From Butyrivibrio sp. (GTDB taxonomy: Bacteria; Bacillota; Clostridia; Lachnospirales; Lachnospiraceae), in contig NZ_JAGAYD010000244.1 in assembly GCF_017940685.1 (NCBI RefSeq), forward strand, positions 38,728 to 102,727: a stretch of DNA of 64,000 bases, read 5' to 3'. The notes under the pieces are model-generated. The model was not told the DNA's origin and did not search any database. It was given only the letters and a program-made list of their open reading frames with translations. This document shows positions 8,950-40,888 of the stretch, piece by piece; within the stretch, counting starts at the first letter, position 1; each line of letters begins with the position of its first letter. The translations under genes were made by a program, and so were the position numbers.

Positions 8950-10971
8950 TCAATCTTTAAAAAATTCCATTTCTTTATTAAGCTTGTTGGCAACTTCTTT
9001 AAGATCATTTGCTGATCCGGCAAGAGTAGTAACTGTTGCAGAAAGTTCCTGCATTGAAGCTCCGGTTTCCTCGGAACTTGCAGCATTTTCCTCAGAGATA
9101 GCAGAAAGAGCACTCATTACATCTACAACAGCATTCCTTGATGTATCACACTGCTGTGCTCCATCTGAAATTGTCTTGACGCCGCCTACGGTCTCGTTGA
9201 TATCATCTATCATTCCGCCGATTGCTTCTATAGTCTCGCCAAGGGATGACTGCTGCTCAAGGTTTGCATCTTTTACGAGCTTCGCTGCATCAACGGCAGC
9301 CCTGCTCTGCTCAAGAAGTTTTTCCATCTCAGCCTTTATATCGTCTGCCATCTTTTTGGAATCTTCTGCGAGCTTTCCTATCTCTTCGGCTACTACGTTA
9401 AAGCCTCTTCCGGCTTCCCCTGCTCTGGCTGCCTCAATAGATGCGTTAAGTGATAACAGATTTGTCTGTGTGGCAATAGCTGTAATACCCTCTACTTTTT
9501 CAGATATCACATTTACTGCATCCTGTGTTGCAGATATGGTATTTGAAATGTCATCTATCTTATCTGTCATGTCAGCGCTGGATGATTGAAGCTCTGAAAG
9601 GGATTTTGATGAAATCTCCGAGGCTTCTTTCATCTTTCCGGCAAGGCTTTCAAGGCTTCCTGCTGAGGTCTGAACTCCTGAAACTGCATCTCCTATATAA
9701 CCCACATTGGTTGAGGCATTTTGTATCTCGTCTGCTTGCTGGGTTGCGCCAGATGCTATCTCCTGTACTGCATTGGAAACATCTTCTGCTGTCTGTGATA
9801 TCTGACCTGCCATGTCTGATAGTTCTTCTGATGAACTGCCAACCTGGGATGCAGATGACTTTATATTGCCTACAATCTCGGAAAGCGTATCAATAACAGA
9901 GTTTGTATCTTTCGATATATCTCCCAGTTCGTCTTTTCTTTTATCGTGCTTATCAACCTTTACAAAACGCCCATCTGAGAGTGCCTTTAAAGATTTGCTT
10001 ATATCAAGGATTGGAGCTGTGACTCCTTTTGCAAGGCCGAATGCAAGTACCGCTGCAATAACAGCCATGATGATGCCCATTATCACAATGATGGTTGCTG
10101 ATCTTGTAGCCTCTGCCAGTACCTCTTTTGATTTTGCTGCTACTGCTATGGAATAGCCTGTGTTTGGTTCTTTTACATAGGCTACGTATGCTGCATAACC
10201 TTTCCCGGTATTATTATTGACATAAAAGCCTTCTTCCTTGCCTTCTGTCATAATAAGTGATTTAGAGCGGTCTTCTTCATCGTGGTCCTTTCCAATGATG
10301 TACTGTGAATGAGCCGCAACTGCTCCTGTTCTGTCAAGAACAAAGGCATCATCAAACTCCGCTGCAAGAATGTCGTGGAGATCTTCCATGTCGTAGTTTC
10401 TCTGCACACATCCAAGGATTTCTCCTGTCTCATTATCAAATACAGGAACAACTATTGTTATGATACGTGAGCCTGTAGACTTTGATACCTGGACATCCGA
10501 AACATAGATAGGAGTACCGGACATGGCCTGTTTGTAATACTCTCTGTCGGATATATCAACGCAATCACCTACTGTTCGTAGAAGCTGCATACCTTCTGTT
10601 CCGCTTAAGATGGTGCCGTTCCCGTCTGCAAGGGAGTCATCAATCTTTTTAAGTGAGTCAAACATTACCTCGTCAGGAATACTTGTGCCAGGTGACTGAA
10701 GGTAATTGATCGTGGCCGGTGATGTGGCGAGTGTCTGCATGGCGATAACGTTTTTATCTATCATCTTGGAAAACAGATCTTCCATATACCACGCCTGCCA
10801 CTCAAGTGAGTCCTGTGCATCTGCCTTGGCTTTATCTGTGGATGTGACATAGCTCACTATCACAGCAAGCGTCAGCGGAATAATAGCAATAGCCAGGATT
10901 ATTGCAATAAGTTTTGTTTTAATACTGTTTCTGAAACTGATTGCAGACTGTGTTCTTTCTTTCCCTCTCAT
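8950..10971 (-). CDS. Methyl-accepting chemotaxis protein with dCache-like sensor
   Basis: The 673-residue receptor has a transmembrane segment at about 20-45, an extracellular sensor of about 245 residues resembling dCache ([27 protein letters not shown]), a second membrane segment near 295-315, a HAMP region, and a long coiled-coil signalling domain with the conserved tip [20 protein letters not shown]. It should signal to CheA/CheW, none of which are in this window, so it probably works with host proteins. It is the last gene of the Tad-like operon, 27 bp after its neighbour, and no promoter was seen between them. Confidence 0.93.
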
Positions 10972-10998
10972 AAGAATAAACCACCCCTTTTCTAAAAA

Positions 10999-12033
10999 TT
11001 ACGGTTTGCAGTATGGACACGGCCATGCCCCTCTTTTTGCACATTCTTTCTTGGATGCATATTTACCTACTATCTGAAGGGAATTGACCCTTGTACATTC
11101 TTTCTGATGATAGGTGTATGAGCCGTCTGTTTCCTTCATGATCACATATTCTATTCCTTCCTCAAGCTCATACCCTGAAAATGAGTAGATATTTAGCTCT
11201 TCAAAATTAGAGTAGTCAGATACCTGAGGTCCCTGCAAGAATCCAAGAACAGACGGCTTATCCATGAGGTTTGCCCAATTAGCTCTGTCAACGGTAGGGA
11301 GCGTGAAATCATAATGAAGCGCCTTCTCAGAATCTCCGCTCTTTCCATTTGCCACATAGTTATACTGATCTATATAAATATCCATTACTTCTGTCGTATC
11401 ATTCATTACAAGGTCAAGGCGGGCATCCATATACTTTGTTTTTGACGAGAGCATTTCAAGACTTGCTGGTGATCCAAAATACTTATAAGCCTGTTCATAT
11501 GTGCCGGTATATGATTTTCCGGTTGTCCTGTCGGTTACTGTCACGTTACAGTCGGGTCCAAGATAATATTGGATAATGTATGTTTCATCCGCATCGGCAG
11601 ATACATCTGTCCAGGTATTTATGTTTGTTGTAACAAAATGTCCACTCCTGCCTTCTTCTGCTGAGTTATATCCAATGTAATAGCCATCATAGTCCATAAG
11701 GCAGAGCATAGGAATACGGTACTGCATCTCTGACTGTCCTACGGAATCATACTGAAGGTTAAGAGACTGGTATAGAGTTGTGAAGAATGCGTTTGTGGCA
11801 TCATTTCTTGCTCTTTCCGTACCAAAAAGACGCATTACAACGTCGTTGTTACCTTCGGTGGCATTCCTTTTGGCAGCTTCAAGGGCTGCATTGGTAGCGC
11901 TTCGAAGGTCTGCAACATATCTTGTTGTCTGCGTCTTATATTGAGTTTTTATATCTACCCTGTAACCAAAGAAGAATATCATTACAGAGAGCATTCCAAG
12001 GAAGAAAATCCCTAAGATATTTCTTAAATTCAT
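10999..12033 (-). CDS. Exported single-span protein of the Tad-like operon with C-terminal Cys motif
   Basis: One N-terminal hydrophobic segment (about residues 5-24) should leave the 320-residue remainder outside the membrane. The C-terminus has the pattern YHQKECTRV...SKKECAKRGAWPCPYC, which resembles the metal-binding motif seen in Ada-like domains (YH..C......S..EA...G..PC..C). The start codon directly follows the stop codon of the previous gene. It fits the place of a minor pseudopilin or tip protein but shares no sequence I can tie to TadE/F. Confidence 0.55.
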   Translation of the reverse strand: MNLRNILGIFFLGMLSVMIFFFGYRVDIKTQYKTQTTRYVADLRSATNAALEAAKRNATEGNNDVVMRLFGTERARNDATNAFFTTLYQSLNLQYDSVGQSEMQYRIPMLCLMDYDGYYIGYNSAEEGRSGHFVTTNINTWTDVSADADETYIIQYYLGPDCNVTVTDRTTGKSYTGTYEQAYKYFGSPASLEMLSSKTKYMDARLDLVMNDTTEVMDIYIDQYNYVANGKSGDSEKALHYDFTLPTVDRANWANLMDKPSVLGFLQGPQVSDYSNFEELNIYSFSGYELEEGIEYVIMKETDGSYTYHQKECTRVNSLQIVGKYASKKECAKRGAWPCPYCKP

Positions 12034-16618: not shown

Positions 16619-17716
16619 TTAACCCTCCTTTTTCCTTGTAGTAAGGAGCTGTTCAGGCAAGATAGAAGGCGTTGAATCAAACTTACGGCACAGGAATGCG
16701 AATGAATCTGAAAAATCAGGACACATTACCGCCACACGGCTTCCATCCTTCATTGTTGATATGATCTTGGGGTCTTTCTGAGTAAGTATCGTAGGTGCGT
16801 TGTACCTGTAGATATTCCTTGTTACTCTCTGAAGCTCTTTCTGAGTTTCAAACGTAGTACACGATAGGTGTATATTTAGACCATGGAAAACTATCCATAC
16901 CGCTTCGAATGAATATCTTGGCTCATCAAGTGACTTTTCATAGTCTGATACATCCTCGGGATAGTCATCATCAGACTGGCTGTGAAGAGTGATATCATAT
17001 CTACCCGAAGGGATTCCTGATGTGCCACCCTGATACTCATCTATCTCTATCTCATGGAGAAGATCCACGGGCCCAAGTCCGAATCTCTTCTCATATACGA
17101 GCTGTGTAAGGAAGTCGATCTTTTCTGCGTAGTCGATTCCGCCACGCTCCTCGATATATTCTTCATATACCCTTGTGATATCTTCCTTTGTTACGTCGTA
17201 TACATCTCCGTACCTTGTTTTCTTTGGCTTATCGAGTCCAAATCTTGAGAAGTTCTTAGAAAATCCTCTCTCACCCTCTTCCATCCAGAGCATTGTAAGG
17301 ATCTCGAACTTATACCGGGGCTTAAGCTTGTCAGGGTCATTGAACGGGATGATGGAATCGATGTTGTAAGGAGAAACCTTACCGATCCTTTCATCTGTTA
17401 TAACGTCCTGCGTGTACTGCTTAACGAATGCCCTTGCAGCAGCGTCACCATCTGCACATTTGTGGATGGAGCTCTTAAGCTCTTCCTTATTGGCCATCTT
17501 TTTCTTGTACTGCTCAGAATTAAGGTTCATATCATTAACTGAGCGCTTAATGGTCGCTGCAAAAGTTTCATTAACTTTCTGCATCAGGGATTCTACCGTT
17601 ATAAGCTCTTTTTCTTCGATATCATCACTGTCTTCTGTGGTCTTCTTTACGAAGTAGATAAGTCCTCCAAGGGCCACAACAAGTATAAGGATTATCATAA
17701 GTGTGTTATTAAGCAT
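16619..17716 (-). CDS. TadA/CpaF-like N-terminal domain, membrane-anchored and encoded separately
   Basis: A hydrophobic anchor at residues 5-23 is unusual for this ATPase family. The following region contains FGLGPVDLLHEIEIDEYQGG, then SYSFEAV-type strands and PTILTQKDPKIISTMKDGSR followed by VAVMCPDFSDSFAFLCRKFD, which match the TadA N-terminal domain (glycine-rich turn, P...dA.L.DGSRV, and the RKF strand before the Walker A domain). It lacks any P-loop. With the 323-residue motor gene downstream it makes a full ATPase split in two. Confidence 0.7.
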   Translation of the reverse strand: MLNNTLMIILILVVALGGLIYFVKKTTEDSDDIEEKELITVESLMQKVNETFAATIKRSVNDMNLNSEQYKKKMANKEELKSSIHKCADGDAAARAFVKQYTQDVITDERIGKVSPYNIDSIIPFNDPDKLKPRYKFEILTMLWMEEGERGFSKNFSRFGLDKPKKTRYGDVYDVTKEDITRVYEEYIEERGGIDYAEKIDFLTQLVYEKRFGLGPVDLLHEIEIDEYQGGTSGIPSGRYDITLHSQSDDDYPEDVSDYEKSLDEPRYSFEAVWIVFHGLNIHLSCTTFETQKELQRVTRNIYRYNAPTILTQKDPKIISTMKDGSRVAVMCPDFSDSFAFLCRKFDSTPSILPEQLLTTRKKEG

Positions 17717-22477: not shown

Positions 22478-24271
22478 TTATTGTAAATAAAATGCGTGTT
22501 CATTAACGGCTGTGAACCATGCGTGCTCTCCCCAATCAACGTGTGCTGCTGCGGGGATATTACTTGTGATCATGGGATTTCTGAAATATAGAACGTCTGA
22601 GTTGTTTAGTATCGATACCCTCCCAAGGAACACATCCTTTGCTATTGACAACATTTCTTCTGACGGTGTTATGGTCTTTAGTTCTGACCTACCCGTAAAC
22701 TGCCCATCCTGATAGATGACTTCTTCGTAGGTTGATGGGAACAGTGCTGATAAAACTCTGTTTCTGACTACTTCACCCGCTGCTACCCATCCGTTATAGC
22801 CCTGGTTAAGTGCTTCATGGGTCATGAGCTGTGCGAGAAGATAAATGCTGCTATTGTCTTCCGGTGAGAGGTTTATGTCTGAAATATACTCAGATGCTAT
22901 GCTCTGTTCTTCAGCTACAAGCTCCTCTTCGGAAATTGGCTCTGCTGTCTCTTCTTCGCTAATGGTGTAATAATCATTATCATAATAATCCTCTTCTGAA
23001 TTATTGTCAATAGAAAAATACACTCTTGGCGTAATCGACTTGTAATATTTAAACGGGAACTTGGAAAGTGTGACTGTTCCCTTACCTGATGAACAGTGGA
23101 TATAGTAGCCTGCACCTACATAAATTCCGCAGTGGTTTATGCCTTCACCCTGACCGTTATATAGAAGGCCAATGTCTCCGGGCTGTAACTGATCCTCAGA
23201 AATATCATAGAGGTTATCTACCATACACGATGTTGATACAAGCTTTGATGTTATATCCGGTGAGTACCCTGCTGTCATGTATATCCACTGAACAAAACCT
23301 GAGCAGTCGAGTCCTCTTTGTTCTCCATTTTCATCGTATGTCCACCATGCGTTGTTATATCCTCCCATCTCAGCTTTGCCGCCCCACTGATAAGGGATCT
23401 GGCCTATGAACATTTTTGCAAGTAGGATTATCTTTCTCTGTTCCTCTGTCATGTTCTTTATATAGCTGTTTAGTTCCTCAATGCTCATCTCTGAGATGAA
23501 ATCAAAGCTTCTTCTCAGCTCGATGAATGTATTCTGCGTAAGTGTTGCCGGGTTAAGGATCGAGTCTATGGCATCGTAGTATTCTTTGTATCTATCCTCT
23601 ATAGCGTCAAAGGTGAGCCCAAAGTATTCTGTAATGGTATCAAAGGATGCCTTTACAAGTGTGGTCTCAAGGTAAGAGGTTGTCTTTTCTTCTGGGGCAA
23701 CTGTAGTTGTTCCTGTTATCTCATAGCAGCCCTTTTGGCCTTCTACTTCCGTGTAAACCGGTACGACAGTTTCTTCCTTGATGATCTCATTTCCTACCTT
23801 GTGGAAGTAACCGTCCTCTCCGGTCTCATACTTTGGAATTAGTGCGGGGATATCTTCCGTAACGGACTCTTCTTTAAGGTCCATGGTGATGAACGGAATT
23901 CCTGCAAAGCCTGTCTTTATATCCTTACCCTTTAGCTGGCAATGTTTTTTGATGGCTGAGTAGAGTGCGATTATCTCTATGTAGTTAGTTCCGATAAGAG
24001 GGTTTTTCTGATTATCAAAGCTCATGAGTGATAATGTCTCATCAAGCTCTTCATCTCTTACCTTGGTCACAAGCTGCTGCCTTGCCGTCTCATATTCGCC
24101 TATGAAAACCTTCTCGATTTCCTTTGTGGCGTTATAGAGGTTTTTTCGCATCTCTTCCTGTGCATCTGTATAGGCATTTACTATCATCTTTGTACTGAAA
24201 AATGATGATACTGCCATGACAAGTGCAAGACTACCGCCTAAGACTCTTCGCTTTAACAACTTTACGTCCAT
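22478..24271 (-). CDS. Wall hydrolase with NlpC/P60 and SleB-like domains, VirB1-like
   Basis: The ATG at 24271 is chosen because GAGGAG lies 7 bp before it. A membrane segment at the N-terminus (LGGSLALVMAVSSFF) exports the protein. A canonical NlpC/P60 domain follows in the usual order, with catalytic Cys in GLDCSGFVQW (near 323) and His in INHCGIYVG (near 379). After an acidic linker a SleB/hydrolase_2-like domain (VAAGEVVRNRVLSALFPSTY, near 500) ends the chain. Two cell-wall activities in one protein fit local opening of peptidoglycan for a transfer machine. It overlaps the VirD4 gene by 41 bp. Confidence 0.85.
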   Translation of the reverse strand: MDVKLLKRRVLGGSLALVMAVSSFFSTKMIVNAYTDAQEEMRKNLYNATKEIEKVFIGEYETARQQLVTKVRDEELDETLSLMSFDNQKNPLIGTNYIEIIALYSAIKKHCQLKGKDIKTGFAGIPFITMDLKEESVTEDIPALIPKYETGEDGYFHKVGNEIIKEETVVPVYTEVEGQKGCYEITGTTTVAPEEKTTSYLETTLVKASFDTITEYFGLTFDAIEDRYKEYYDAIDSILNPATLTQNTFIELRRSFDFISEMSIEELNSYIKNMTEEQRKIILLAKMFIGQIPYQWGGKAEMGGYNNAWWTYDENGEQRGLDCSGFVQWIYMTAGYSPDITSKLVSTSCMVDNLYDISEDQLQPGDIGLLYNGQGEGINHCGIYVGAGYYIHCSSGKGTVTLSKFPFKYYKSITPRVYFSIDNNSEEDYYDNDYYTISEEETAEPISEEELVAEEQSIASEYISDINLSPEDNSSIYLLAQLMTHEALNQGYNGWVAAGEVVRNRVLSALFPSTYEEVIYQDGQFTGRSELKTITPSEEMLSIAKDVFLGRVSILNNSDVLYFRNPMITSNIPAAAHVDWGEHAWFTAVNEHAFYLQ

Positions 24272-26339
24272 TGACATTCTCCTCATGTGGTCTTCTTTCA
24301 GGCCTCTGCTCGCCTGAGTCTGTTTGGGATGAAGTCTGTCCGCCAAGGGATATTGTCTTCATTCCGGTTTTTGAATCTGTGGTCTGAGTATTGGATGATG
24401 TAGATGACTGGTTAAATCCTTCAGAATTTTCTCCATTCTCTCCATATACTCTCTTACTCCATTCAGGGGTTCTGTGTTTTGTAAACCTTTTGGTCTTGAT
24501 GTTATCAAGGTGAAGAAGTTTATAGTATGGATGCAGCCACCACATAAACATATCAAGTCTCGTTACTCCTGCTCCGTTTATGATGGCCAGCAGTTCTTCA
24601 TCCTTAAGTCCTCTTTCGCCATTACCCTGTAATTCCTGTGGAGTCATAAGGGCTCGCTTACCTCTTCCACCTTTTACTCCGTAATGCTCATGCAAATGTA
24701 TAGGGTCTGCTACATTTTCATCATATGATTCGTTCTCTTCGTAGTAGGTAAAGTCACCAAGTCGTTTTGAGATATATTCTGCAAACTCATTATCATTACC
24801 TATTCTGAGGACAATCATTGTGGTACAGTCTGATATTACTGTTCGCCATTCGTCATTGGGGTAGAGCTGCTTAACCTGGGAAAGATCCTGAAATACTGTT
24901 TTGATATTGATGCCTCTTGATCTTACTGAGGAAAGCTTTTCTACAAACATGGAGAGCTTACCGACCTGTTTAGCCTCATCAATCTCAAAATTGACGGTTA
25001 CAGGAAGTCTCATTTCCCCTGCTTCTTCCATTGAGTCTGCTGCCGATGTAAGCGCCCTGAACAATTGTTCAATGAACAGTGTTGACAAAACCTTGTTGGT
25101 ATTATCGTTATCAGGGATGACTATGTAATAGATGCATTTTTCAAAGCCCGGTGCTGAGAATGAAATCTCTTCGTTTGAAAGTATCTCTCTTACATCTTCG
25201 GATGACATGAAGTAAAGGGCTGTCATAAGTCCGCCATACACGGACTCTTTTACGATTGGTGTCGTACCTGAGAAAGTCTGCCACGCCTCATATGCCGGAT
25301 GGCCTTTTTGTGATGCGATATCCCCATAGGTTGCCTCAATGTTTGTATAGTTCTTCTGTTCTACAAGTATCTCGTAAACCTTTCCGAGGGTTCTTTTATT
25401 CTCGGGGATTGTCTGATCCCATTTAACGATAAGGATAAGAGCTGTTAAGAGGTTCTGTGCTCCTGTATACCAGATCGAGCCTTTATCTCTTTCGTTATGG
25501 GTCTGCTCCATGATGATGTTTACGATTGAGGCTGCAATACCTTTGGCCTTATTTATTCCCTGGCGGGTATTGTCGTACTTGATGTTGGCGAGGATATCAC
25601 AGGCATCAGAATACTGTACTTCATCAGGTTTGGTATTAAATATTTTTACGTTGTACCCTGCTTTTTCTCCTACATACGCTGTATCTTTATATACCGCTCC
25701 TTTTGTATCAACTACGATGATTGATTGCCCTGCCTTTACAGCCTGCAAAACATCATTGTTGATAATACATACTGATTTACCTGATCCGGGAGGTCCAAAG
25801 ATGATCACGTTGGAGTTTGTGAACCTTACCGTATCATCTCTTGCACAGACTCTCTTTTTATCATCTACTCCAAGGATGGGTTTGTTTATATTACCCACGT
25901 CCTTATCCATATCAAGGTATTTCTGTTTTTCTTTCTCATCCATAAAGTGAGCTGAACCATAGGTGTTATCATTTACCGATACCTTTGTGCCGGTTCGCTC
26001 ATCAATTACATAATCCTTATGCAGCATTCTTGACCATCTCATTATCCACATGGCAGCCGAGCCACATATGGCCAGCCACAATAGAAGTGACATTGGATAG
26101 AAGAATGTTTCAATGATACAATCCCAAGGCGCAAAACTTACTTCATCTTCCATGACGAACTGGGTAAAAAGTCCGGTAGCCCACCAAGCCATGAACACTA
26201 CCGCAAGGGTTATAAGAATAGTTCTTTTTCTATGGTCTTTTAGGCTCTCTTTAAACCCTGCAAAACCAACCTTTAGATCCTTGACAAACCCCTGACTATT
26301 TCCTGATGCGTCTTTGTCTTTTAATAATTTAAGTCTCAT
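24231..26339 (-). CDS. VirD4/TraG-type coupling protein (T4CP)
   Basis: N-terminal membrane segments near 30-50 and 65-90 precede a cytoplasmic ATPase with Walker A GPPGSGKS (near residue 185), IIVVDTKGAVY as Walker B-like strand, and late motifs such as NFEIDEAKQVGKL and SRGINIKTVFQDLSQ typical of TraG/VirD4. The protein brings the DNA-relaxase complex to the type IV secretion channel. ATG 26339 (GAGG upstream) is preferred to 26375. It overlaps the upstream gene by 11 bp. Length 702 is usual for Gram-positive T4CPs. Confidence 0.92.
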   Translation of the reverse strand: MRLKLLKDKDASGNSQGFVKDLKVGFAGFKESLKDHRKRTILITLAVVFMAWWATGLFTQFVMEDEVSFAPWDCIIETFFYPMSLLLWLAICGSAAMWIMRWSRMLHKDYVIDERTGTKVSVNDNTYGSAHFMDEKEKQKYLDMDKDVGNINKPILGVDDKKRVCARDDTVRFTNSNVIIFGPPGSGKSVCIINNDVLQAVKAGQSIIVVDTKGAVYKDTAYVGEKAGYNVKIFNTKPDEVQYSDACDILANIKYDNTRQGINKAKGIAASIVNIIMEQTHNERDKGSIWYTGAQNLLTALILIVKWDQTIPENKRTLGKVYEILVEQKNYTNIEATYGDIASQKGHPAYEAWQTFSGTTPIVKESVYGGLMTALYFMSSEDVREILSNEEISFSAPGFEKCIYYIVIPDNDNTNKVLSTLFIEQLFRALTSAADSMEEAGEMRLPVTVNFEIDEAKQVGKLSMFVEKLSSVRSRGINIKTVFQDLSQVKQLYPNDEWRTVISDCTTMIVLRIGNDNEFAEYISKRLGDFTYYEENESYDENVADPIHLHEHYGVKGGRGKRALMTPQELQGNGERGLKDEELLAIINGAGVTRLDMFMWWLHPYYKLLHLDNIKTKRFTKHRTPEWSKRVYGENGENSEGFNQSSTSSNTQTTDSKTGMKTISLGGQTSSQTDSGEQRPERRPHEENVNGRKVVKAKSLRR

Positions 26340-27495
26340 GCTTACGTACCTCTTCCTTGTAGTCCGACAGTTCAATCTCTCCGATTGTCACATAGTCTCC
26401 TGCAAGTCGCTTGACCAGCTGTGTCTGAAATGAGAAACAGTAGACAACAAATTTATCTGCGTCCTCTGTCATACGTGCCCTTTTGATGAAGGACTTTAGT
26501 CGGGAGATATCGCAGGATGTGAACATCAGAATATACTTATCATCCTCTACTGCATCACATACTACCTGAGTACCCACAGGGGGCATATTATAATCTCCAA
26601 GTAATATGTGTCTCATGTCCTTAAGCCAATCCTTTTTCTTCATTTCCTCAAGCATTGCTATTCCATTTTTATCTGTTGGCAGTGCGTACATGTGCTCGTA
26701 TGCAAAGTCGATATTTAAAAGGATCTTTGTGTTGTATGCCGGATGTGCTTCAAGCTCATTAAGGATGACTCTCTCGAACAGCTTATAGTCATCAGCAAAC
26801 ATGATGCAGTCAATTGGAATCTCTTCTACGATCTTCTGATTCCTCTCACCTATCGTTCTCTTAACAAGCTCTTTCATTCTCACTTCCCCAAAGCGGTTCC
26901 ACTCAATGAGTTTATTACCAAGGGAATAGGTTGCGTATATTCCGCCCTGGGATATCTCAAGGCCGGATAATCTTGATACGGATGTCTGTTTCTTTCCATC
27001 CTCTTCTTTTACATCGTCTACATAGCAGGTAGCGTCTTTTACTTCGTCTGCGTTGTAATAGAAAGCGTCAAGCCCCTTGTATGTAATGTCATTCATATCG
27101 GGTTTTTCATCGGGGTAAGCCCCTACACCGGCAAGGTGCATCATAAGGTTAAGCTCTGCTCTTCTTGAAAACCTGTTTAGTCTCGTACCGCCTTCGCTTA
27201 AACACTTATAAAGCTCTTCCTGCAACTCTTCCCTGCGAGCTATGAACGCTTCATCTTTCCAATGCTGTGTACCATCTTTCCAGCCGTTCTTTAATGTGAG
27301 TACGCTATCCCTTCCTGTTCCTACTCTGATTATTTCTCCATCATTCTCCATTTCCTTTACTTTACGCTGTGTGATTCCTGTCTCTCCGTTATAGAGCTTT
27401 AATGATTTATAAGGGAGAACTCCATTGGCATAAAGAGTCTTTAATATCTCAACCCTCTTTCCGCTCTTGATGGTTCGTGTCATCTTCTTTTCCAT
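26329..27495 (-). CDS. Winged-helix protein next to VirD4, possibly Replic_Relax-like
   Basis: The N-terminal 70 residues read as a winged helix (VEILKTLYANGVLPYKSLKL, ITQRKVKEMENDGEIIRVG). The remaining 310 residues are mixed alpha/beta without a recognised domain. Position directly upstream of VirD4 and next to a 510-bp noncoding region fits the replication-relaxation family of mobile elements, or an oriT-binding accessory factor. No canonical relaxase HUH or Tyr motif was recognised. It begins the 18.5-kb operon ending with the chemoreceptor. Confidence 0.45.
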   Translation of the reverse strand: MEKKMTRTIKSGKRVEILKTLYANGVLPYKSLKLYNGETGITQRKVKEMENDGEIIRVGTGRDSVLTLKNGWKDGTQHWKDEAFIARREELQEELYKCLSEGGTRLNRFSRRAELNLMMHLAGVGAYPDEKPDMNDITYKGLDAFYYNADEVKDATCYVDDVKEEDGKKQTSVSRLSGLEISQGGIYATYSLGNKLIEWNRFGEVRMKELVKRTIGERNQKIVEEIPIDCIMFADDYKLFERVILNELEAHPAYNTKILLNIDFAYEHMYALPTDKNGIAMLEEMKKKDWLKDMRHILLGDYNMPPVGTQVVCDAVEDDKYILMFTSCDISRLKSFIKRARMTEDADKFVVYCFSFQTQLVKRLAGDYVTIGEIELSDYKEEVRKHET

Positions 27496-28006: not shown

Positions 28007-28573
28007 TTAGTCCTCGAAAATGTCATATTCTATGTTGACCTGACCGTTATTATCTCTGGAAATGAAAGCTCCCAGGAACGGTGCCTTGATATTGGTATTG
28101 AGGACTATCTCTCTTGCGGCCTCTGACGTGGTGACAAATATGAATTCGCTGTTATCATCGGTCTGTACATTGTGGCTAAAATACTGCTCATTCATTGCCT
28201 TGATGATCGGCGCTCCATTCTCATCGATATAGACTACCGTATAAACCTTGCCGTTTGACATGAAGTAAATCTGTGCCGGATGGGCTGCCCTGAAGTATTC
28301 CTTTGTATCGGGGTTCATATCTACATCGTTCTTAAGGAGTACCCAACCTGCCATCTCGTTTTTCTTAAGGAATGGGGTGTTGTCTGATACGGAAACATAT
28401 ACGCCGCTCCCTCTTGAGGTCTCCTTGATATATGTTCCCTTAAGGGCGTTAAGGTAATACTCCTTTGCTCTTGTATCAGCCTTAGGTAAAAGGGCGTTAA
28501 TCTGCTCTGTTGTAATTCCTCCTACCTCTTTGATGAACTGTAGTATCATTTTTGACTCGTTACAAAGTATCAT
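28007..28573 (-). CDS. DUF5697-like protein with N-terminal winged helix
   Basis: The start at 28573 has AAAGGAG 9 bp upstream; the longer frame from 28660 only translates the TGTC-N3-GACA repeats. The 188-residue chain begins MILCNESKMILQFIKEVGGI followed by TTEQINALLP, a winged-helix pattern, and then a mixed domain. Related proteins are common in Firmicutes conjugative elements beside VirB4 and VirD4, where their job is unknown. A DNA-binding role at the repeat array immediately upstream is an attractive inference. Confidence 0.5.
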   Translation of the reverse strand: MILCNESKMILQFIKEVGGITTEQINALLPKADTRAKEYYLNALKGTYIKETSRGSGVYVSVSDNTPFLKKNEMAGWVLLKNDVDMNPDTKEYFRAAHPAQIYFMSNGKVYTVVYIDENGAPIIKAMNEQYFSHNVQTDDNSEFIFVTTSEAAREIVLNTNIKAPFLGAFISRDNNGQVNIEYDIFED

Positions 28574-28606
28574 GTTAAATCTCCTTTCAGCGTACTTTTG
28601 ATATTT

Positions 28607-28765
28607 TGTCCTATCCAAATTTGCGTTTGTCCCGTCCATTTTAGCGTTTGTCCGTGACATTTATATATTTGTCCCCGACACATATAAAAACGTCTAAAAT
28701 CGGCTTTAAATTTGTCCTAGACACTATTTATTTTGTCTTGGACATTTATGTATTTGTCCGTGACA
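28607..28765. repeat. Array of TGTC-N3-GACA sites
   Basis: Five perfect sites (28649-28659, 28670-28680, 28713-28723, 28734-28744, 28755-28765) and two with a degenerate right half (28607-28617, 28628-28638) occur in 160 bp, most preceded by TTT or ATT. Spacing from site to site is about 21 bp except for one 43-bp gap, so most sites lie on one DNA face every two turns. The array covers the last codons of VirB4 and the gap before the 188-residue gene. Similar sites lie at 40967-41020 between the two partition operons. Confidence 0.75.
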
Positions 28766-31700
28766 TTTTCATTCGTCTCTCAAGCTCTTTTGCCTTGAGT
28801 TTTTCGTTTATGGTTCTCTTTACATTTAAGTCTGTGGTATAAAGTGCTTCCTCTTCGACAGATGTATCAAGTTGGAACATTATCTTTGAACCGTTGCTTA
28901 TAAAGAGACCACATCCTCTTGTCTTGGCAAATGTCTCTGTAAGGATAAGCTTATCTCTCTCTGTAAGCTCAAGTACCTCAGAGACTACTCTAAACTGGTT
29001 AGGTTTCAGAGAAAGAACTATTACAGATTCTGAACATGCTATGATTGCTTCACCGGCAGGGTTCTTAAATTCCTGTATATTCTGAGTGGCAAAGCAGCAC
29101 GCCCCACCATAACCTCTTATAAGCCTTGCCTCTTTCTGCATCTGCTGTGCTGCTGAAGGACTCTGCATGAGTCTCCATGCCTCATCTGTAACGCTGACTC
29201 CGAAGGTGTTCATGTCAGCTCTTATGACTTCATTTACAAAGCCTTGGCACAGGAACATGACGGATGGTAAAAGGTCTTCTCCTATGTCCTCAGCCTCAAC
29301 GTCAAAAGCAATAACTTTCTTTGCAGTATCTATATCTGTCTGACCATTGAAGTTTGAGAAAGTTCCTGTGACGAATGGATCAAGTAGCTCTGAATATTGT
29401 GCGAGCCTTGGGTCTGCATGTATTCTCTTTTGCCAATCATCAAACTGTGGTGAGCGTCTTTTTCTTCCGGTTGCTTTATCTCTCCAGATAGAATCATCAT
29501 CTTCTGTGATATTGAAATCAGCGTAAAGCTCCTTTAGAAGTGAATTCATTCTGTTGAGGTCAGCGGATGAAAGAATAAGGTTTGAGTTGCCTTCTGTCTC
29601 AGCAAGGAGTTTAAAAAATGAACAGAGATATGTGATCTTCTTTACAAGAAGTGGTGTTTTATTATCATTCTCACGTTCTTCCTCGTTATCCTTTGTGACT
29701 TCAAGAACCGCACTTTTCTGAGGGTATATCTCCATAGGATTAAAAGTAAACTTTGCTCCCGGGGCAACTTTTAAATACGTGCCACCCCATGCCTCTACTG
29801 CGTTCTTATACTCATATCCCTTGGTCGGCAATATGAAATATACTTTAACTCCGTTTACGAGCCATCTTGCTGCAAGCGCAAGCGTGAGGTATGTCTTACC
29901 TGAACCAGGTGGTCCAATGATGAGCATATTGCCATTCTTAAACAGCCCGGTATTGAAGTTGTTGAAGGCAAATATCGTATTGTTTTCAAGGTTCGGACCT
30001 ATGATAAGGCCTTTAGGATCTGATAATGTATATGTGGTAAAGCAGTACAAATCCCTTAATGTTGACGTGAGCATATTTCTTGCATTTCTTTGGAATATCT
30101 TGTTTTGGAATTGGCAAAGAGGCCTTGTCATATCATAGAAGTCCTCTGTGTCGTAGAAGCTCTCTTCGCACTTAATACCATTACCTGACAGATGTTTTAT
30201 GAACAACCCCTTTCCTGCCAAAAGCTTTTTAAGGTCTTTTCCATAGAGTGTGAACACTGTCACACAGTCAAAAAGATCCTCTTTTCTCTTCCGCATACTC
30301 TCGATGATGTAATTGGAATTTGACAGCTTATCTGCAAGGGCGTTCTTTTGTCCTTCACGGTTAGTCTGTTTATATGATACCGACTGCCAGGTTTTCTTTC
30401 TCTCAATAGTGTTAAGAGTGATGTCGTGATCAAGTTTGTGGTAGAAAAAGTCTATATCCACATTGAAGCCTACCATGACCTTCCTTGCCCTTATCATGTT
30501 GAGCCAGTCGGGAACTACGGCCCCGGGATATCCATTATCCTTGATTACAAGGTATGTTGTATAAAGGCCGTCAATAAGTGCTGTCTCAGAGTGATAATTA
30601 AACGCCATCCCTTTAGGAGCAAAGTAGTCTGCCTTGTCTATTAACTGCTCAGAATATTCTATGCCACGGGATGCGCAAAACTTTCTGTAATCACTCTGTA
30701 TTCTGATGATTCTATTTACTATAGATTCTGTTTCGCTTGAATTTTTGCAGAACAGTTTATACAAGGTTTCTATAGTATGCAGTGTTGGATTTTCTGACTC
30801 CGCAACAAGGTTTCCATAAGTTTCAAGAATACTCTTTATGGAGTATCTTTGAACCATCATAGCTTGATATATTTCATTGATATCCGTGGAGAACTGACCC
30901 TTAGTATCACCTTCATATCTGAAAATGAAATAATATCTGTAGTTTATGGTGTCAGTTGTTCCAAGCTCCTGTACTTTTTCAATGAGCTGATTCCTGATGC
31001 TTAGTCTCGGCTCATCCATACAATCATCAGGACACACTTCTCTAAGATGGTTTATAAAGGACGTTACGTTAGTCTTCTCCATTGTCATCTTAAAGTGTCC
31101 GTCAACAGGACATTCGATAAACATGGACTTAAAGTTTTCAATGATAGCAAGTTTATCGTTTTCACTTCGCTGGTAATAATTGATAGGGAATATCTCCATT
31201 ATCATGTGATACTTATTATCATTCGTGACTATCATATTCCCTATAACATCTTTGATTCCGGTTTTGGTCTGTGTGAAGCCGCTTGGGTCAATCTGTGAAA
31301 AGAACTTAACCCTACCCTTCTTTTTAGGTTTATCCTCTTTTTTTGATTTCTTTTCAGATTTAGGATTTTCCTTAACTGCCTTATCTGTGGATTTGTGCGT
31401 GGCTTCACTTTTTACAACAGAAGAAGCCCCATTATTACTTGATTTAGGGCTACTTTTTACCGGTTCTGCTGTTTTAGGTCTATCGGAAACATCCTGCTTT
31501 GCTTTGACAGGCTCAGACTTTGGGATAGATTTTACTTCCGCCTTAGGCTTTTCCTGAATGGACTGTTGTGGCTTTTCTTTGGGCTGTGCCTGTTGGGCGG
31601 TATTCTTATGTGAGATTGTCTGTGATGTTCCTGATGAACTGTTTTGCGAACCTTGCGAGCTGTTTTGTGATAGTGTCTTCAGTTTCATCGGCTGCTGCGA

Positions 31701-31778
31701 GGTTCTTGTCGTCCCAGAAGTCTCTGATCTTTCCGTAGACTGCGTTTGTTTGCTTAAATTTACTGTTTTTAATTTCAT
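28746..31778 (-). CDS. VirB4/TraC-type conjugation ATPase with long low-complexity N-terminus
   Basis: The 1010-residue ATPase has Walker A GPPGSGKT (near 620), a Walker B strand KKVIAFDVEAED (near 826) and the late motif TDEAWRLMQSP typical of VirB4. Residues 1-175 are Ser/Gln/Lys/Pro-rich and lack homology; the opening MKLKT recurs at residue 31. VirB4 powers the channel and moves the pilus subunit. AGGGAG lies 8 bp before the start at 31778, so the gene truly begins inside the previous gene and overlaps it by 173 bp. The last codons run into the TGTC-N3-GACA array. Confidence 0.93.
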   Translation of the reverse strand: MKLKTVNLSKQTQSTERSETSGTTRTSQQPMKLKTLSQNSSQGSQNSSSGTSQTISHKNTAQQAQPKEKPQQSIQEKPKAEVKSIPKSEPVKAKQDVSDRPKTAEPVKSSPKSSNNGASSVVKSEATHKSTDKAVKENPKSEKKSKKEDKPKKKGRVKFFSQIDPSGFTQTKTGIKDVIGNMIVTNDNKYHMIMEIFPINYYQRSENDKLAIIENFKSMFIECPVDGHFKMTMEKTNVTSFINHLREVCPDDCMDEPRLSIRNQLIEKVQELGTTDTINYRYYFIFRYEGDTKGQFSTDINEIYQAMMVQRYSIKSILETYGNLVAESENPTLHTIETLYKLFCKNSSETESIVNRIIRIQSDYRKFCASRGIEYSEQLIDKADYFAPKGMAFNYHSETALIDGLYTTYLVIKDNGYPGAVVPDWLNMIRARKVMVGFNVDIDFFYHKLDHDITLNTIERKKTWQSVSYKQTNREGQKNALADKLSNSNYIIESMRKRKEDLFDCVTVFTLYGKDLKKLLAGKGLFIKHLSGNGIKCEESFYDTEDFYDMTRPLCQFQNKIFQRNARNMLTSTLRDLYCFTTYTLSDPKGLIIGPNLENNTIFAFNNFNTGLFKNGNMLIIGPPGSGKTYLTLALAARWLVNGVKVYFILPTKGYEYKNAVEAWGGTYLKVAPGAKFTFNPMEIYPQKSAVLEVTKDNEEERENDNKTPLLVKKITYLCSFFKLLAETEGNSNLILSSADLNRMNSLLKELYADFNITEDDDSIWRDKATGRKRRSPQFDDWQKRIHADPRLAQYSELLDPFVTGTFSNFNGQTDIDTAKKVIAFDVEAEDIGEDLLPSVMFLCQGFVNEVIRADMNTFGVSVTDEAWRLMQSPSAAQQMQKEARLIRGYGGACCFATQNIQEFKNPAGEAIIACSESVIVLSLKPNQFRVVSEVLELTERDKLILTETFAKTRGCGLFISNGSKIMFQLDTSVEEEALYTTDLNVKRTINEKLKAKELERRMKMSRTNT

Positions 31779-32073
31779 CGTTTACGCTCCCTAATCGTAA
31801 TCCTCTTCGTGCTACGAGATGTCTAAGCCATAACATGATAGCCTGACAGATGGATTTGTTTCTGATTCCCATAAGATTGAATACGACAGCTATTCCGCAG
31901 AATACTAATGTGAAGATGATCTTTGCTTTTACAATAAAAGGAAGTACCCATATGACAGCTCCGATTATTCCTGCTGTAACTGCCGCTTCAATGATATTCC
32001 TTATGAAAAATGGTCCGAGCTTCTTTTGCATCGACCTGTTGTTAGGAACTAAGTCCTGCATCTGATTAGCCAT
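31606..32073 (-). CDS. PrgI/VirB3-like membrane protein
   Basis: This 155-residue protein has two hydrophobic segments (about 25-46 and 50-68) followed by an RR-containing turn LRHLVARRGLRLGS, the layout of PrgI/TcpE proteins that precede VirB4 in Gram-positive conjugation systems. The C-terminal 58 codons overlap the VirB4 frame. It should bind VirB4 at the membrane. Confidence 0.7.
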   Translation of the reverse strand: MANQMQDLVPNNRSMQKKLGPFFIRNIIEAAVTAGIIGAVIWVLPFIVKAKIIFTLVFCGIAVVFNLMGIRNKSICQAIMLWLRHLVARRGLRLGSVNDEIKNSKFKQTNAVYGKIRDFWDDKNLAAADETEDTITKQLARFAKQFIRNITDNLT

Positions 32074-33937: not shown

Positions 33938-35899
33938 CTACTTACTCCTCGGATATGATATCGCTATCAAATTACCGGCGTTCTCATTATATCTGCATAT
34001 ATCAGCCGCGACAGGGGCATATCCGCCAAATTCTATTCCTACGCTTCGATATACGGCTGCTACAAATGATGAGCAGTCATAATATCCGTCTGAGGTTCTT
34101 TTTTCTTGTGAATAGATCTTGCCGCATTGTGACAATGCAAAATCAAGTAGCTGCTGTCTTGTATCTTCGTCATCATCAGGTAACGGGCGGCAGATAGATA
34201 CGATGTAATTGGGATTTAGCCCTGAATATACGCTTCTGTAAATGACAACTCCTTTTCCACTTGATGCATCAACCATCATATCGTTACCGGCGTATATAGC
34301 TACGTGTGTTACATTTTTGTATCTGCCATTAGATTTTGCAGAATAGAACATTATGTCTCCAACTTTGAGTTCTTCATCAGGGTTTATATCCCCGATCATG
34401 ATCCTCTCGAATTCCTGAAGAAGCTCTCCGCCGTATACATATCCTGATTCTTCAAAGCCATAATCCCACTCAGTTCTCTTGCAGGGGCCAAAGTCGTAAT
34501 AATCGGCATAACATCTTAGATTTTCTTCTGATTCATCAAGCAGATTTATATTAAGCATGTTATCTACTTGAGCATTAAAGTCAAAAGCGTCAACTTCAAT
34601 AAATCTGTAGAGTGATTTGAGATCGTAATGTCTTAATGTGACTTTGCCATACAGAACCATTTCTGTAGTTGTATCTATTACATTTCCTTCTTCATCGTAG
34701 TGTTCTATCACTTTTTCAGCCCAGTCAGGCTCAACCTTCATTCTGTATAGGAGCTGCAATTTCCATGGCCTTAAAACTGGATTAAAGAGCTTTTTAAACT
34801 CTTTATAGACAAGATTCTCTGAGTTAAGTTCTTCTTTTTGCTGTACCACCTCGATAATCTCAGCGTAGTTCATGTCGTCGTAGAAGTGCTCTTCTTCTGC
34901 TTCATACGATGCCATTGTCAGCTCATAATCATATTCTTCTTTTTCGATTATCCATGGAAGCTCAAAGTTCTTTGCAATGTTAAGAGCTCTTTCAAAGCCT
35001 CTGTTGATGTATTTTTTTGCTTTATCACAGCCTTCTGTGAATTCCAGTTCGGCATCAAATTCGCCTACTTCATCCTCTTCTTCATCGTTGAAAAGATTAA
35101 AAAACCAACTAAAGCCCCAATCAATATCCTCGATATCGAATTTATCAGAGTATTGACCTTCTATGTAATTCTCATCAACTGAGCCGAAAGTCGTTTTGTA
35201 GGTGTAGCTCATGCTCCCATTGAACATTAAGAGAAACAATATAAACCACATAATCCAGCCAAAACCGCTCTTTCTTGTTTCTCCTGTGACTATTTTGCCC
35301 CATGATGTAGCAACTTTTCCTGCGGCTTTTACTGCTTCAAGAACCGCTACTGCAATTGCTCCTACACCGGTTGCTGATGCGCCCGCTTCAGCTCCTGCGG
35401 CCGCAGCTCCCTCAGCGGCTCCGGCGGCTGCACCTTCTGCTGCTGCACCTGCCGCTGCTTCTGCTCCTTTTTCTGCTCCGGCTTCGGCAGCCTGTACCGC
35501 AACATCTTTCGCCGCACCTTCCGCCATGCCTTCGGCCGTTTCGGTTGCAACACCGCCAATTTCTGATGCTTCTGCTGTTGCTTCCTGTGCTTGTGCCGCT
35601 TGTTCGGCAACCTCTCCTGCATTCTTAGTTCCGGCGTTTCTCATTGCGGAGTAGTCAACGTCAGGTGTTCCGCCGTTACCTGACAGAAGCTCTGATTGTT
35701 CAGGAGCTGTATCTGTTATTTGAGGAGATTTTGCATCGGCTTGGGTATCAATATTCTGATGACTTACATGATTATCAGGACTTGTATGCTCCTGAAATCT
35801 GTCATACAAGTCCTTGGCATCGTCCAGTAATTGACCGGGATCTACTTCGGAACCCTGTTCTTGTTGATTTTCATCTTCGTAATCGTCGTAATTTGCCAT
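33938..35899 (-). CDS. Transfer-linked NlpC/P60 hydrolase with circularly permuted catalytic domain
   Basis: The 653-residue protein has a polar N-terminus, an Ala/Glu-rich low-complexity stretch (about 90-190), a membrane segment near 217-233 and a long extracellular part. In the C-terminal domain the His-bearing half KVGDIMFYSAK...THVAIYAG (near 515-540) comes before the Cys-bearing half GYYDCSSFVAAVYRS (near 607-622), the reverse of normal NlpC/P60 order. Joined end to start, the halves make one complete domain. It should cut peptide links in the wall during channel assembly, as VirB1-type enzymes do. Confidence 0.8.
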   Translation of the reverse strand: MANYDDYEDENQQEQGSEVDPGQLLDDAKDLYDRFQEHTSPDNHVSHQNIDTQADAKSPQITDTAPEQSELLSGNGGTPDVDYSAMRNAGTKNAGEVAEQAAQAQEATAEASEIGGVATETAEGMAEGAAKDVAVQAAEAGAEKGAEAAAGAAAEGAAAGAAEGAAAAGAEAGASATGVGAIAVAVLEAVKAAGKVATSWGKIVTGETRKSGFGWIMWFILFLLMFNGSMSYTYKTTFGSVDENYIEGQYSDKFDIEDIDWGFSWFFNLFNDEEEDEVGEFDAELEFTEGCDKAKKYINRGFERALNIAKNFELPWIIEKEEYDYELTMASYEAEEEHFYDDMNYAEIIEVVQQKEELNSENLVYKEFKKLFNPVLRPWKLQLLYRMKVEPDWAEKVIEHYDEEGNVIDTTTEMVLYGKVTLRHYDLKSLYRFIEVDAFDFNAQVDNMLNINLLDESEENLRCYADYYDFGPCKRTEWDYGFEESGYVYGGELLQEFERIMIGDINPDEELKVGDIMFYSAKSNGRYKNVTHVAIYAGNDMMVDASSGKGVVIYRSVYSGLNPNYIVSICRPLPDDDEDTRQQLLDFALSQCGKIYSQEKRTSDGYYDCSSFVAAVYRSVGIEFGGYAPVAADICRYNENAGNLIAISYPRSK

Positions 35900-38870: not shown

Positions 38871-38887
38871 ACTCTGATGTTGATAGT

Positions 38888-39265
38888 TTAGGCTGCTCCG
38901 CCAAAAGTATTTGCCATCCAGATGATCGTATTAACTACGAGGTTTACAAGGTTAAGTCCGATAAAGGCAATTACAATTACCTTTGCGGCAGATCTTAGTC
39001 CTGCTACTGCTTTCTCATTCGAACCAGCAAGCCCAAGTGATAAGAAGAACGCAAGTACAACCCATGGAAGGATCGTCTTGTCTGCAAATGTAGTAACCTC
39101 ATCCAGTACCGTCTGATTGTTTGCATTAAGTGTAGAGAATAATGTGTCTCCATCTGCAAACACTGATACTGTTGTGCCTATAGTTGTCGCGGCCATCCCT
39201 GCCAGGAGTGCTGCTTTCTGAGAGGCTGTTTTGAGCGCTCTCTTTGTTAATGTATCGATCTTCAT
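38888..39265 (-). CDS. VirB2/TrbC-like pilin or channel subunit
   Basis: ATG 39265 with AGGAGG 8 bp upstream is preferred to TTG 39271. The 125-residue protein has a signal segment AALLAGMAATTIGTTVSVFA and two membrane helices (near 67-83 and 95-119), the layout of VirB2/TrbC subunits. It is first in the operon, next to the strong promoter, and is followed by an attenuating hairpin, which fits high expression of a structural subunit. Confidence 0.7.
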   Translation of the reverse strand: MKIDTLTKRALKTASQKAALLAGMAATTIGTTVSVFADGDTLFSTLNANNQTVLDEVTTFADKTILPWVVLAFFLSLGLAGSNEKAVAGLRSAAKVIVIAFIGLNLVNLVVNTIIWMANTFGGAA

Positions 39266-39312
39266 GTCCAATTCCTCCTTGTGAAAATCTTATTTACGCT
39301 TATGATGTAATA

Positions 39313-39341
39313 AGTATAATACACCTTTGGCATATTTGCAA
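39313..39341 (-). promoter_or_regulatory. Promoter of the type IV secretion operon (39265-32971)
   Basis: Minus strand: -35 TTGCAA (39336-39341), 17-bp spacer ATATGCCAAAGGTGTAT, -10 TATACT (39313-39318). Confidence 0.8.
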
Positions 39342-39351
39342 GGGTTTACTA

Positions 39352-39894: not shown

Positions 39895-39901
39895 AAATCA
39901 A

Positions 39902-40888
39902 TCACCCCTTTGCTGAGGCCTGATACATCTGCTTGATCAAAGCTGCGTAGCCTTTTGCATTAGCCCTTGCCGGGTCTTTAAGATAGTGCTGGTTCATAAT
40001 GACCTTATTCTTGTTGATAAAAGGTCTTAACAACTTTGAACCGCCGCCAAGGAATACAACCGGAGTTGCAGCAAAACTGATGTTGCACTGTGAAAGCTCA
40101 TTAATGATGTTCTCGTCTACCCATTTCTGCACATCAGCCATGATGAGCCTGATTACTTCCTCAGAGAGCACTGTCCTCTCTTTGTTTATCACGCACTCAA
40201 TATCCTTGTTGTCAATTGATACTCCCAGCGCACGTTTGCAATCAAGGACGATATTCTGATACATATAAAGGATTCCTGATTGTACGGAGATGCATGAAGC
40301 AGTATCTGGCGTGTGGTCGATAAAAGGAATGACATCCATTGTTCCACCGCCGATATCTACTGCGACAAATTTAGGATAGTTCTTTATGATATCATCGTCT
40401 GTGTTCACAACAATTGCTGCATAGTCCTGAGGGAATACCTTGCAGAATGTAAGCTTGAATGAATATTTAAGTCCACAGTATTCAAAATCAATTCCATCCT
40501 TCATATAACTCTCAAGGTACTGGATCTTTTTCTGTGCAGCTCCCTTTGCCATCATGTGTGAAGGCGGAAGTCCTACTCCAAGTGCAACTTCTGTATACTT
40601 AGAGATTTCGCCCTGTATATTCCCATCCTGCCCTACCTTTTTAGTTGCCAGGTATCTTAGTTCCTGCGCAATGCCAAAAAGAACAAGCACAAGGGAACGT
40701 TCATTAACTGTCTTGTCCTCAAGGTATTTAAACCTCTTCTGGCTAGGGACGTAATATACTCCGTTGTAAAACAGATATTCATTTACCATCGGTGGCAGGA
40801 TCTCGGAACTTGTATATCCTGCGGGCATAGTTGTATGAGGGCTTTTAATGTCATAATTGCCATCATCTATTCCGGTAAAAAACAACAT
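39902..40888 (-). CDS. parM: Actin-like plasmid segregation protein (ParM/Alp family)
   Basis: ATG 40888 has AGGAGG 10 bp upstream; the longer frame starts at TTG. The phosphate-binding loops of the actin fold are visible: TGIDDGNYDIK near residue 5, AVDIGGGTMDV near 195-205 and VFLGGGSKLL near 283. Polymers push plasmid copies apart with the help of ParR. The gene has its own promoter (40933-40961) divergent from parAB, with TGTC-N3-GACA sites in the space between. Exact subfamily is uncertain. Confidence 0.85.
   Translation of the reverse strand: MLFFTGIDDGNYDIKSPHTTMPAGYTSSEILPPMVNEYLFYNGVYYVPSQKRFKYLEDKTVNERSLVLVLFGIAQELRYLATKKVGQDGNIQGEISKYTEVALGVGLPPSHMMAKGAAQKKIQYLESYMKDGIDFEYCGLKYSFKLTFCKVFPQDYAAIVVNTDDDIIKNYPKFVAVDIGGGTMDVIPFIDHTPDTASCISVQSGILYMYQNIVLDCKRALGVSIDNKDIECVINKERTVLSEEVIRLIMADVQKWVDENIINELSQCNISFAATPVVFLGGGSKLLRPFINKNKVIMNQHYLKDPARANAKGYAALIKQMYQASAKG

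Follow-up and report, generated by a model that had tools for sequence, protein, structure and literature searches.

The last 64 kb of the 102.7-kb Butyrivibrio sp. contig NZ_JAGAYD010000244.1 (contig C96 of genome G000; these 64,000 nucleotides are referred to as the window) carry a divergent Tad-type gene cluster in one run with a VirD4 coupling protein gene, close to genes of a conjugative type IV secretion system (T4SS). Filament and transfer genes are paired in several described systems. In IncI plasmids (R64, TP114), a type IV filament and a T4SS are likewise present on one conjugative element, but these plasmids are Gram-negative and their thin pilus is type IVb and not of the Tad lineage. 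The IncI pilus aids mating (PMC9045228; PMC12857230), and the TP114 pilins matter for transfer in broth and in the gut and not on a solid support (PMC9045228). In PAPI-1 of Pseudomonas aeruginosa, type IV pilus genes occur with VirB4 and VirD4, and the pilus is essential for transfer (PMC12857230). One model presented in the same review treats PAPI-1 as a chimera in which VirB4, VirD4 and the type IV pilus form a single system (PMC12857230). PAPI-1 differs from the window in its diderm host and its pilus lineage, and the window additionally has VirB6-like and VirB1-like genes.

Gram-positive plasmids with similar content have also been described. The linear plasmids of C. acnes have VirB4-, TcpC- and FtsK-like genes upstream of a tad locus, and the link to transfer is left open there (PMC5696575). 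These plasmids are actinobacterial, a pilin and cell appendages are reported for them, and they are compared here by description only. In Lysinibacillus sphaericus, plasmid pBsph contains VirD4, VirB4 and VirB6 homologs and one "pilus assembly ATPase", listed as possibly conjugal; a mating assay was negative at 1e-7 (PMC4363355). The pBsph-like plasmid p1593 is treated as conjugative and its replicon gene was detected in transconjugants (PMC13239906). One L. sphaericus plasmid (L043), which may be pBsph-like, carries the Tad subfamily of the window. Unlike the window, the pBsph-like plasmids have the Bacilli arrangement: Replic_Relax and VirD4 lie upstream, and the motor is unsplit. The original prediction for the window, made from its sequence without database searches, stated that no such merged locus was known. 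The C. acnes plasmids and pBsph are partial precedents, but no account of the subfamily as a group, of its TadB-TadC fusion or of its recurrent VirD4 linkage was found in the literature searched (bioRxiv excluded, few subscription papers included).

The window covers a section of a large, plasmid-like mobile element that encodes a monoderm conjugative T4SS and a divergent Tad-type machine. It encodes a ParM-like protein and, by inspection of translations, ParA/ParB-like and tyrosine-integrase-like proteins. The Tad cluster shares with Tad/Flp systems the motor family, the two platform halves, a CpaB-like partner, possibly the CpaE-like partners, several single-span proteins and a compact locus. 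It differs in that TadB and TadC are fused and, in the window and in the related genome G033, the motor is split. The gaps in the run are too small for a short Flp pilin gene, and the pilin-like proteins are 147–344 aa long. The reading that we favour, at a probability of about 50%, is that the cluster encodes an attachment or mating filament, and that this filament assists a T4SS of the conventional kind in the way known from IncI plasmids.

The motor and platform of this cluster are a TadA/CpaF motor and a TadB-TadC platform. The 323-, 365- and 674-residue proteins that the original prediction assigned to these families are placed there by family profiles and score weakly as single sequences. 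A profile of 22 motor sequences matches CpaF structures (E=2.8e-18), which rank above FlaI, PilT and VirB11, and T2SSE is found in 19 of the 22 family members at E<=0.01. By itself, the C-terminal half from the window scores 16.2 bits against T2SSE, below the cut-off of 24.9. Among NCBIfam models, the same half scores 31.7 bits against VirB11 and 22.3 bits against TadA, both far below cut-off. A VirB11-like reading therefore stays compatible with the single-sequence test. The profiles of the TadA N- and C-terminal halves match one single open reading frame (ORF) in 80/80 genome loci, and TadA is one gene in all 13 subfamily plasmids. The two-gene split is found in the window and G033.

The TadB-TadC fusion has no relevant match in a single-sequence Pfam search, and T2SSF is not matched in any of 20 fused platform members. 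When the fused platform, as a profile of 20 relatives, is aligned with hhalign to separate platform proteins of three other plasmids (three sequences on that side of the alignment), its N-terminal half aligns to separate TadB (97.0%, E=1e-10) and the C-terminal half to separate TadC (94.4%, E=8.7e-8). One of the separate TadB proteins used passes the T2SSF cut-off (35.6 bits). In HMMER searches, a profile of fused platforms only recovers five separate TadB- or TadC-like proteins (E=1e-9 to 2.3e-3) and misses some. The window CpaB-like protein itself has no useful domain match; SAF is present in 13 of 18 relatives, and the CpaB model TIGR03177 reaches 48.2 bits in L044 and 34.4 bits in L040, below its cut-off of 71. 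Hydropathy shows four single-span proteins in the run. The predicted ORFs, split TadA, fusion, CpaB and single-span proteins are in this way all recovered. The two predicted CpaE-like proteins are retained with less certainty, as degenerate ParA/CpaE-like proteins: family profile searches give only weak ParA/MinD similarity.

A further Tad-like pair may be present elsewhere on the contig. At C96:9861-10815, upstream of the window (locus L056), a 132-aa P-loop protein with a T2SSE score of 20.7 bits, below cut-off, lies beside a 157-aa pilA-like protein. This is a possible miniature or leftover second pair.

The transfer genes include VirD4 and a two-domain wall hydrolase within the Tad run, and domain matches bear out the prediction of both (Table 1). 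Against NCBIfam models of the VirB4 type, the VirB4 protein has E-values of 1.3e-21 to 1.2e-46, with scores that fall short of every curated cut-off; against PF19044 it scores 61.6 bits, above that model's cut-off of 25.8. Two NlpC/P60 hydrolases are present at the locus. The 811-aa protein is called VirB6-like by size and spans only. Upstream of the window, a 626-aa protein (L056, 5627-7507) scores 19.6 bits against PcfJ, below cut-off; genes of this type are often found on conjugative elements.

On the minus strand, from 27495 to 10999, the genes encode a 388-aa protein, VirD4, the wall hydrolase, an S1 protein, the CpaB-like protein, two CpaE-like proteins, TadA N, TadA C, TadB-TadC and the four single-span proteins. 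From the S1 gene through pilD, intergenic distances in ORF coordinates are -4 to +70 bp. The original prediction described a gapless run beside the VirB4 operon. The compactness holds from S1 to pilD, but a 511-bp gap (27496-28006) separates the Tad/VirD4 run from the VirB4/VirB6-like operon at 28007-40897. The predicted extension of the run to 8950 does not hold. The last gene of that range, 8950-10971, encodes a chemoreceptor (methyl-accepting chemotaxis protein signalling domain and dCache) that is absent from the collinear G033 contig, and the conserved block therefore ends at 10999. The HD protein downstream of the run also has no homolog on that contig. HD-domain phosphohydrolases are found downstream of the Tad cluster in the window (6638-7264) and in four plasmids (L040, L042, L048 and L050), which also carry GGDEF proteins. 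These neighbours hint at cyclic di-GMP control.

The block is collinear in the congener G033 and under strong purifying selection. On contig C14 of G033, 42 of the 52 window proteins tested have a homolog, with 50–94% identity and in the same order from pilD onward. The ratio of nonsynonymous to synonymous substitution rates (dN/dS) is 0.03–0.12 in those Tad and T4SS genes for which the two genomes were compared, at dS values of 0.7–1.7; ParM gave no value. In both genomes, VirD4 and the Tad set belong to one gene run. Of 61 genomes, G000 and G033 alone have window-type VirB4 and VirB6 at near-full length. Window-type TadA (>=92%) is found only in G000, G032 and G033.

The Tad subfamily is widespread in Bacillota. 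A protein search of 72,556 plasmids returned 30 records, all less than 60% identical. From these, 16 plasmid stretches were fetched, of which 13 (L038-L050) belong to the subfamily and three are more classic Tad loci. The order CpaB-CpaE1-CpaE2-TadA-TadBC-four single-span genes is kept in the 13 subfamily plasmids, and the Bacilli plasmids have a gene of matching size at the pilB-like position. In the best 80 of at least 217 confirmed relatives in genomes, TadA is present in 80 loci, TadBC in 79, pilA and CpaE2 in 76 each, CpaE1 and pilC in 73 each, CpaB in 70 and pilD in 69. Over 20,681 bp, the tad region of a Cohnella herbarum plasmid (L044) matches a Paenibacillus mellifer contig (L121) with 100.0% identity, and over 17,149 bp it matches a Cohnella strain with 97.4% identity. 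Recent movement is therefore suggested, unless the assemblies are contaminated.

The pairing of this Tad module with transfer genes recurs. VirD4 is present on 13/13 subfamily plasmids (15/16 of all fetched), and in 12 of the 13 it lies <=40 kb from tadA by listed coordinates. PF19044, which is VirB4-type and partly also VirD4, is matched at E<=1e-3 in 8/13 plasmids and above cut-off in five. Replic_Relax is found in 10/13 and the relaxase PF03432 in 1/13. In genomes, linkage was scored in 50 of the 80, picked as mostly longer loci, and 14 of their 57 tadA loci lie <=40 kb from VirD4. In genomes of at least 3 Mb, 13/33 tadA loci are linked versus 0.6 expected (Poisson 1.3e-13, with several near-copies counted as independent). 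In 6/6 cases examined for a downstream module (the Cohnella herbarum plasmid together with five genomes of Paenibacillus/Cohnella), genes for MobC, relaxase, PcfB, VirD4, PrgI and VirB4 follow on the same strand. The annotation of the Cohnella herbarum plasmid names CD1110/CD1115 families. A second VirD4 profile finds a fragment in L081, and MobC, relaxase and PcfB are found in L099.

In the TadA tree (96 rows, quick search, long branches; L078, L125, L137 and rows shorter than 540 aa left out), the window falls in a 10-row clade, mostly Lachnospiraceae, with a Shimodaira-Hasegawa-like approximate likelihood ratio test (SH-aLRT) support of 100. Six of these rows have VirD4 <=40 kb away, two were tested and are unlinked, and two were outside the linkage test. 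In a 26-row Bacilli clade (SH-aLRT 84), 16 rows are linked to VirD4 and 10 are not. One of the 10, P. polymyxa, has VirD4 80 kb off on the same plasmid. L091 and L144 are second tadA copies on their own contigs, which lack VirD4, and L124 has VirD4 38.8 kb away. A third clade of 40 rows consists mostly of small-genome Clostridia. The TadA frames of G071, G074, G080, G083, G097 and G099 each contain one in-frame TGA, and these small-genome Clostridia may translate TGA into an amino acid.

The Tad module and the T4SS can be separated, yet they are recurrently joined, beside differently arranged transfer modules. They are separable because 14 of the 50 cluster-bearing genomes show no VirD4 match and the small-genome clade mostly has none nearby. 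The original prediction raised the possibility that the two sets are unconnected and lie side by side only in the window. The answer is mixed: the module does occur away from VirD4, but it also sits repeatedly beside transfer modules. The original interpretation is upheld in part. The identities of the Tad-like motor and platform, their inheritance together with the T4SS and the recurrence of the pairing are supported, while action of the motor in DNA transfer and the building of a pilus stay at the level of proposals. Recurrent joining is expected if the filament helps transfer of the element, and is less strongly expected if large elements simply carry both as common passengers. Sequence alone cannot tell these two readings apart.

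Two groups of observations weigh against a filament that serves transfer. The first concerns linkage. Near-copies inflate the linkage count, and in genomes smaller than 3 Mb only 1/24 tadA loci is linked to VirD4 versus 2.7 expected. The VirD4-less genomes include P. cellulositrophicus, where the cluster is on the chromosome. In the 40-row clade, one row is linked and 17 are unlinked among the 18 tested, with 22 rows outside the test. Many large plasmids are conjugative in any case, and the VirD4 counts may partly reflect that base rate. G032, a 64%-complete assembly, has window-type TadA, and VirB4 and VirB6 were not found in it. In G007 and G017, which belong to the same genus, TadA is 43% identical and is accompanied by neither window-type VirB4 nor window-type VirB6. 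Relaxases PF03432 and PF13814, the only relaxase families scanned contig-wide, were not found on C96, which is possibly incomplete. A T4SS without an identified relaxase is reviewed for pXO16 of B. thuringiensis (PMC9673590).

One rival reading is an independent colonisation pilus. The Tad-like filament would then serve adhesion, ride as cargo and play no part in DNA transfer. It would adjoin conjugation genes since both live on large mobile elements. With its gene order unchanged, the cluster is often found apart from a T4SS (window-type VirD4 is absent from all 80 genome loci within flanks of <=10 kb per side), as is the case for nearly all tested rows of the 40-row clade. Tad also has the highest plasmid share of the type IV filaments (PMC6668835), and the pili of the C. 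acnes tad plasmids are proposed to support colonisation, with a conjugation link left open there (PMC5696575). However, in two deep TadA clades close linkage recurs with transfer modules that differ from one another, and in the window and G033 VirD4 sits inside the Tad gene run. We regard this alternative as possible, though on the unlikely side.

The second group of observations concerns the pilin-like proteins. One result here is in favour of a filament: the AlphaFold2 (AF2) model of the pilA-like protein has a helix at residues 5–59 (55 residues) and a head with four longer strands, at a predicted local distance difference test (pLDDT) score of 80.5. A long helix with a head is the general shape of type IV pilins. 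In a fold search against the PDB, the model matches no solved pilin and has no significant match. The prepilin peptidase PF01478 (the TadV type of Tad/Flp systems) is absent from 13/13 subfamily plasmids and from C96, and copies occur elsewhere in 7/7 host-type genomes tested (in G000, on C252 and C172). A published cleavage motif (PMC3244431) is found in 4/99 pilA, 0/8 pilB, 1/94 pilC and 2/90 pilD sequences and in 0/4 from the window; it is insensitive, finding 2/11 single-span ORFs in the classic loci L051-L053. A looser K/R-G motif is found in 5/99, 1/8, 1/94 and 0/90, respectively, and in 0/4 from the window, versus 7/11 classic-locus ORFs. The subfamily is not a canonical Flp system, because it lacks a prepilin peptidase and mostly lacks pilin cleavage motifs. 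It is apparently a kind of type IV filament encoded without a dedicated prepilin peptidase.

The scarcity of processing motifs would also fit a secretion device of Tad origin, which would export surface proteins and make no pilus. Surface proteins with S-layer-homology, stalk or DUF5704 domains follow the cluster in many Bacilli plasmids. None of these domains was found in the window genes around the cluster, though, and the pilA model has the long helix and head of a type IV pilin. Such a device is very improbable.

A more radical possibility is a chimeric transfer machine in which the TadA motor and platform are essential to the DNA channel and replace VirB11, as proposed for PAPI-1. The single-sequence preference of the window ATPase for VirB11 is in its favour. 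So is the position of VirD4 in the same gene run, and so is the lack of VirB11 in Gram-positive systems, noted in the review (PMC12857230). The missing peptidase and rare cleavage motifs mean, in addition, that a classical pilus is not assured. The evidence of the whole family, however, points to CpaF and not VirB11. The subfamily also occurs in the genomes without a VirD4 match, and in the Paenibacillaceae elements the CD1110/CD1115-type module is complete and should need no help from a Tad motor. Replacement of VirB11 in this way is quite improbable. A Bacillota counterpart of PAPI-1 in the wider sense is doubtful, if slightly less so. There, the Tad motor and platform with VirB4 and VirD4 would form a chimeric conjugation machine, as a retractable mating filament or as part of the DNA path, with pilin-like proteins that no dedicated peptidase processes. 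If true, a chimera would overturn the view that Gram-positive conjugation proceeds without pili and without a VirB11-type motor.

In the favoured reading, that of a filament aiding a conventional T4SS, a hexameric TadA/CpaF-type motor, split into two polypeptides, would work on the fused TadB-TadC platform. Together they would push the single-span, pilin-like proteins so that these form a filament on the surface, guided by the CpaB-like protein and placed by the CpaE-like proteins. VirB4 and VirD4 would move DNA, and the filament would most likely promote contact between donor and recipient, as the thin type IV pilus does for IncI plasmids. On large Bacillota elements, a Tad-type module is recurrently joined to VirD4 and often to VirB4, and the pairing is a hint that some Gram-positive conjugation may involve a pilus. 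A filament that aids mating would account for the way in which very large Bacillota plasmids of rumen, gut and soil find recipients. Sequenced carriers include B. proteoclasticus pCY360 and pCY186, Lysinibacillus and Paenibacillus plasmids and Cohnella/Paenibacillus elements, which makes the idea practical to test.

Table 1. Features of the Tad/VirD4 run and the adjoining T4SS operon in window coordinates. Handles beginning with G are genomes and those beginning with L are loci.
Feature	Position	Strand	Evidence and distribution
pilD-like single-span protein, 344 aa	10999..12033	-	Final Tad-run gene in 13/13 plasmid stretches; 69/80 genome loci; dN/dS 0.035 versus G033
pilC-like single-span protein, 182 aa	12034..12582	-	DUF4320 18.5 bits, below cut-off; DUF4320 in 1/21 members; family in 73/80 loci
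pilB-like single-span protein, 147 aa	12595..13038	-	Homologs only in pCY186, pCY360, G033, G007, L076, L077, L092
pilA-like protein, candidate major filament subunit, 162 aa	13084..13572	-	76/80 loci; AF2 model
TadB-TadC fusion, membrane platform, 674 aa	13620..15644	-	hhalign to separate TadB and TadC; 79/80 loci
TadA/CpaF motor, C-terminal ATPase half, 323 aa	15641..16612	-	Family profile to CpaF, E=2.8e-18; Walker A GDQGSGKT, GEIA and THHAK segments
TadA N-terminal half, 365 aa, split gene	16619..17716	-	AAGGAGG directly before next ATG; split also in G033
CpaE/ParA-like protein 2, zinc-ribbon-like tail, 543 aa	17719..19350	-	AAA_31 in 2/20 members; DZR 21.4 bits, below cut-off
CpaE/MinD-like protein 1, 228 aa	19365..20051	-	Family profile to MinD, E=0.0012
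CpaB-like SAF protein, 365 aa	20066..21163	-	SAF in 13/18 members; CpaB model in relatives
S1 RNA-binding-domain protein, 401 aa	21234..22439	-	S1 46.7 bits; kin close to Tad run or VirD4 in several plasmids
Wall hydrolase, NlpC/P60 (NLPC_P60) and Hydrolase_2	22478..24346	-	Kin upstream of CpaB in G033, pCY186, pCY360, L076, L077, L092
VirD4 coupling protein	24231..26375	-	PF02534 164.3 bits, E=5.9e-48
388-aa protein, opens the run	26329..27495	-	Among loci searched, homolog only in G033; no Replic_Relax match
DUF5697 protein	28007..28660	-	90.6 bits
VirB4 ATPase	28746..31778	-	VirB4-type NCBIfam models; PF19044
PrgI/VirB3-like small two-span protein (tentative)	31606..32073	-	Position and hydropathy only
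NlpC/P60 VirB1-like hydrolase	33938..35899	-	Domain match
VirB6-like polytopic protein (tentative), 811 aa	35913..38348	-	Hydropathy; size and spans only
VirB2-like small two-span protein (tentative)	38888..39271	-	Hydropathy
ParM-like partition protein, head of T4SS operon	39902..40897	-	MreB-like_C E=3.2e-7; collinear in G033

Three other features of the window lie outside the run and the T4SS operon. The genes at 57226-60090, which we take to be nrdD/nrdG-like, encode an anaerobic ribonucleotide reductase and lack counterparts on the G033 contig that is otherwise collinear. At 7298-8743, a 481-aa protein has repeated CxxC-type units, with kin in pCY186, in the upstream part of C96 and in G007. 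The protein at 2503-5307 is an MmeI-type restriction-modification protein in which all five MmeI domains are matched.

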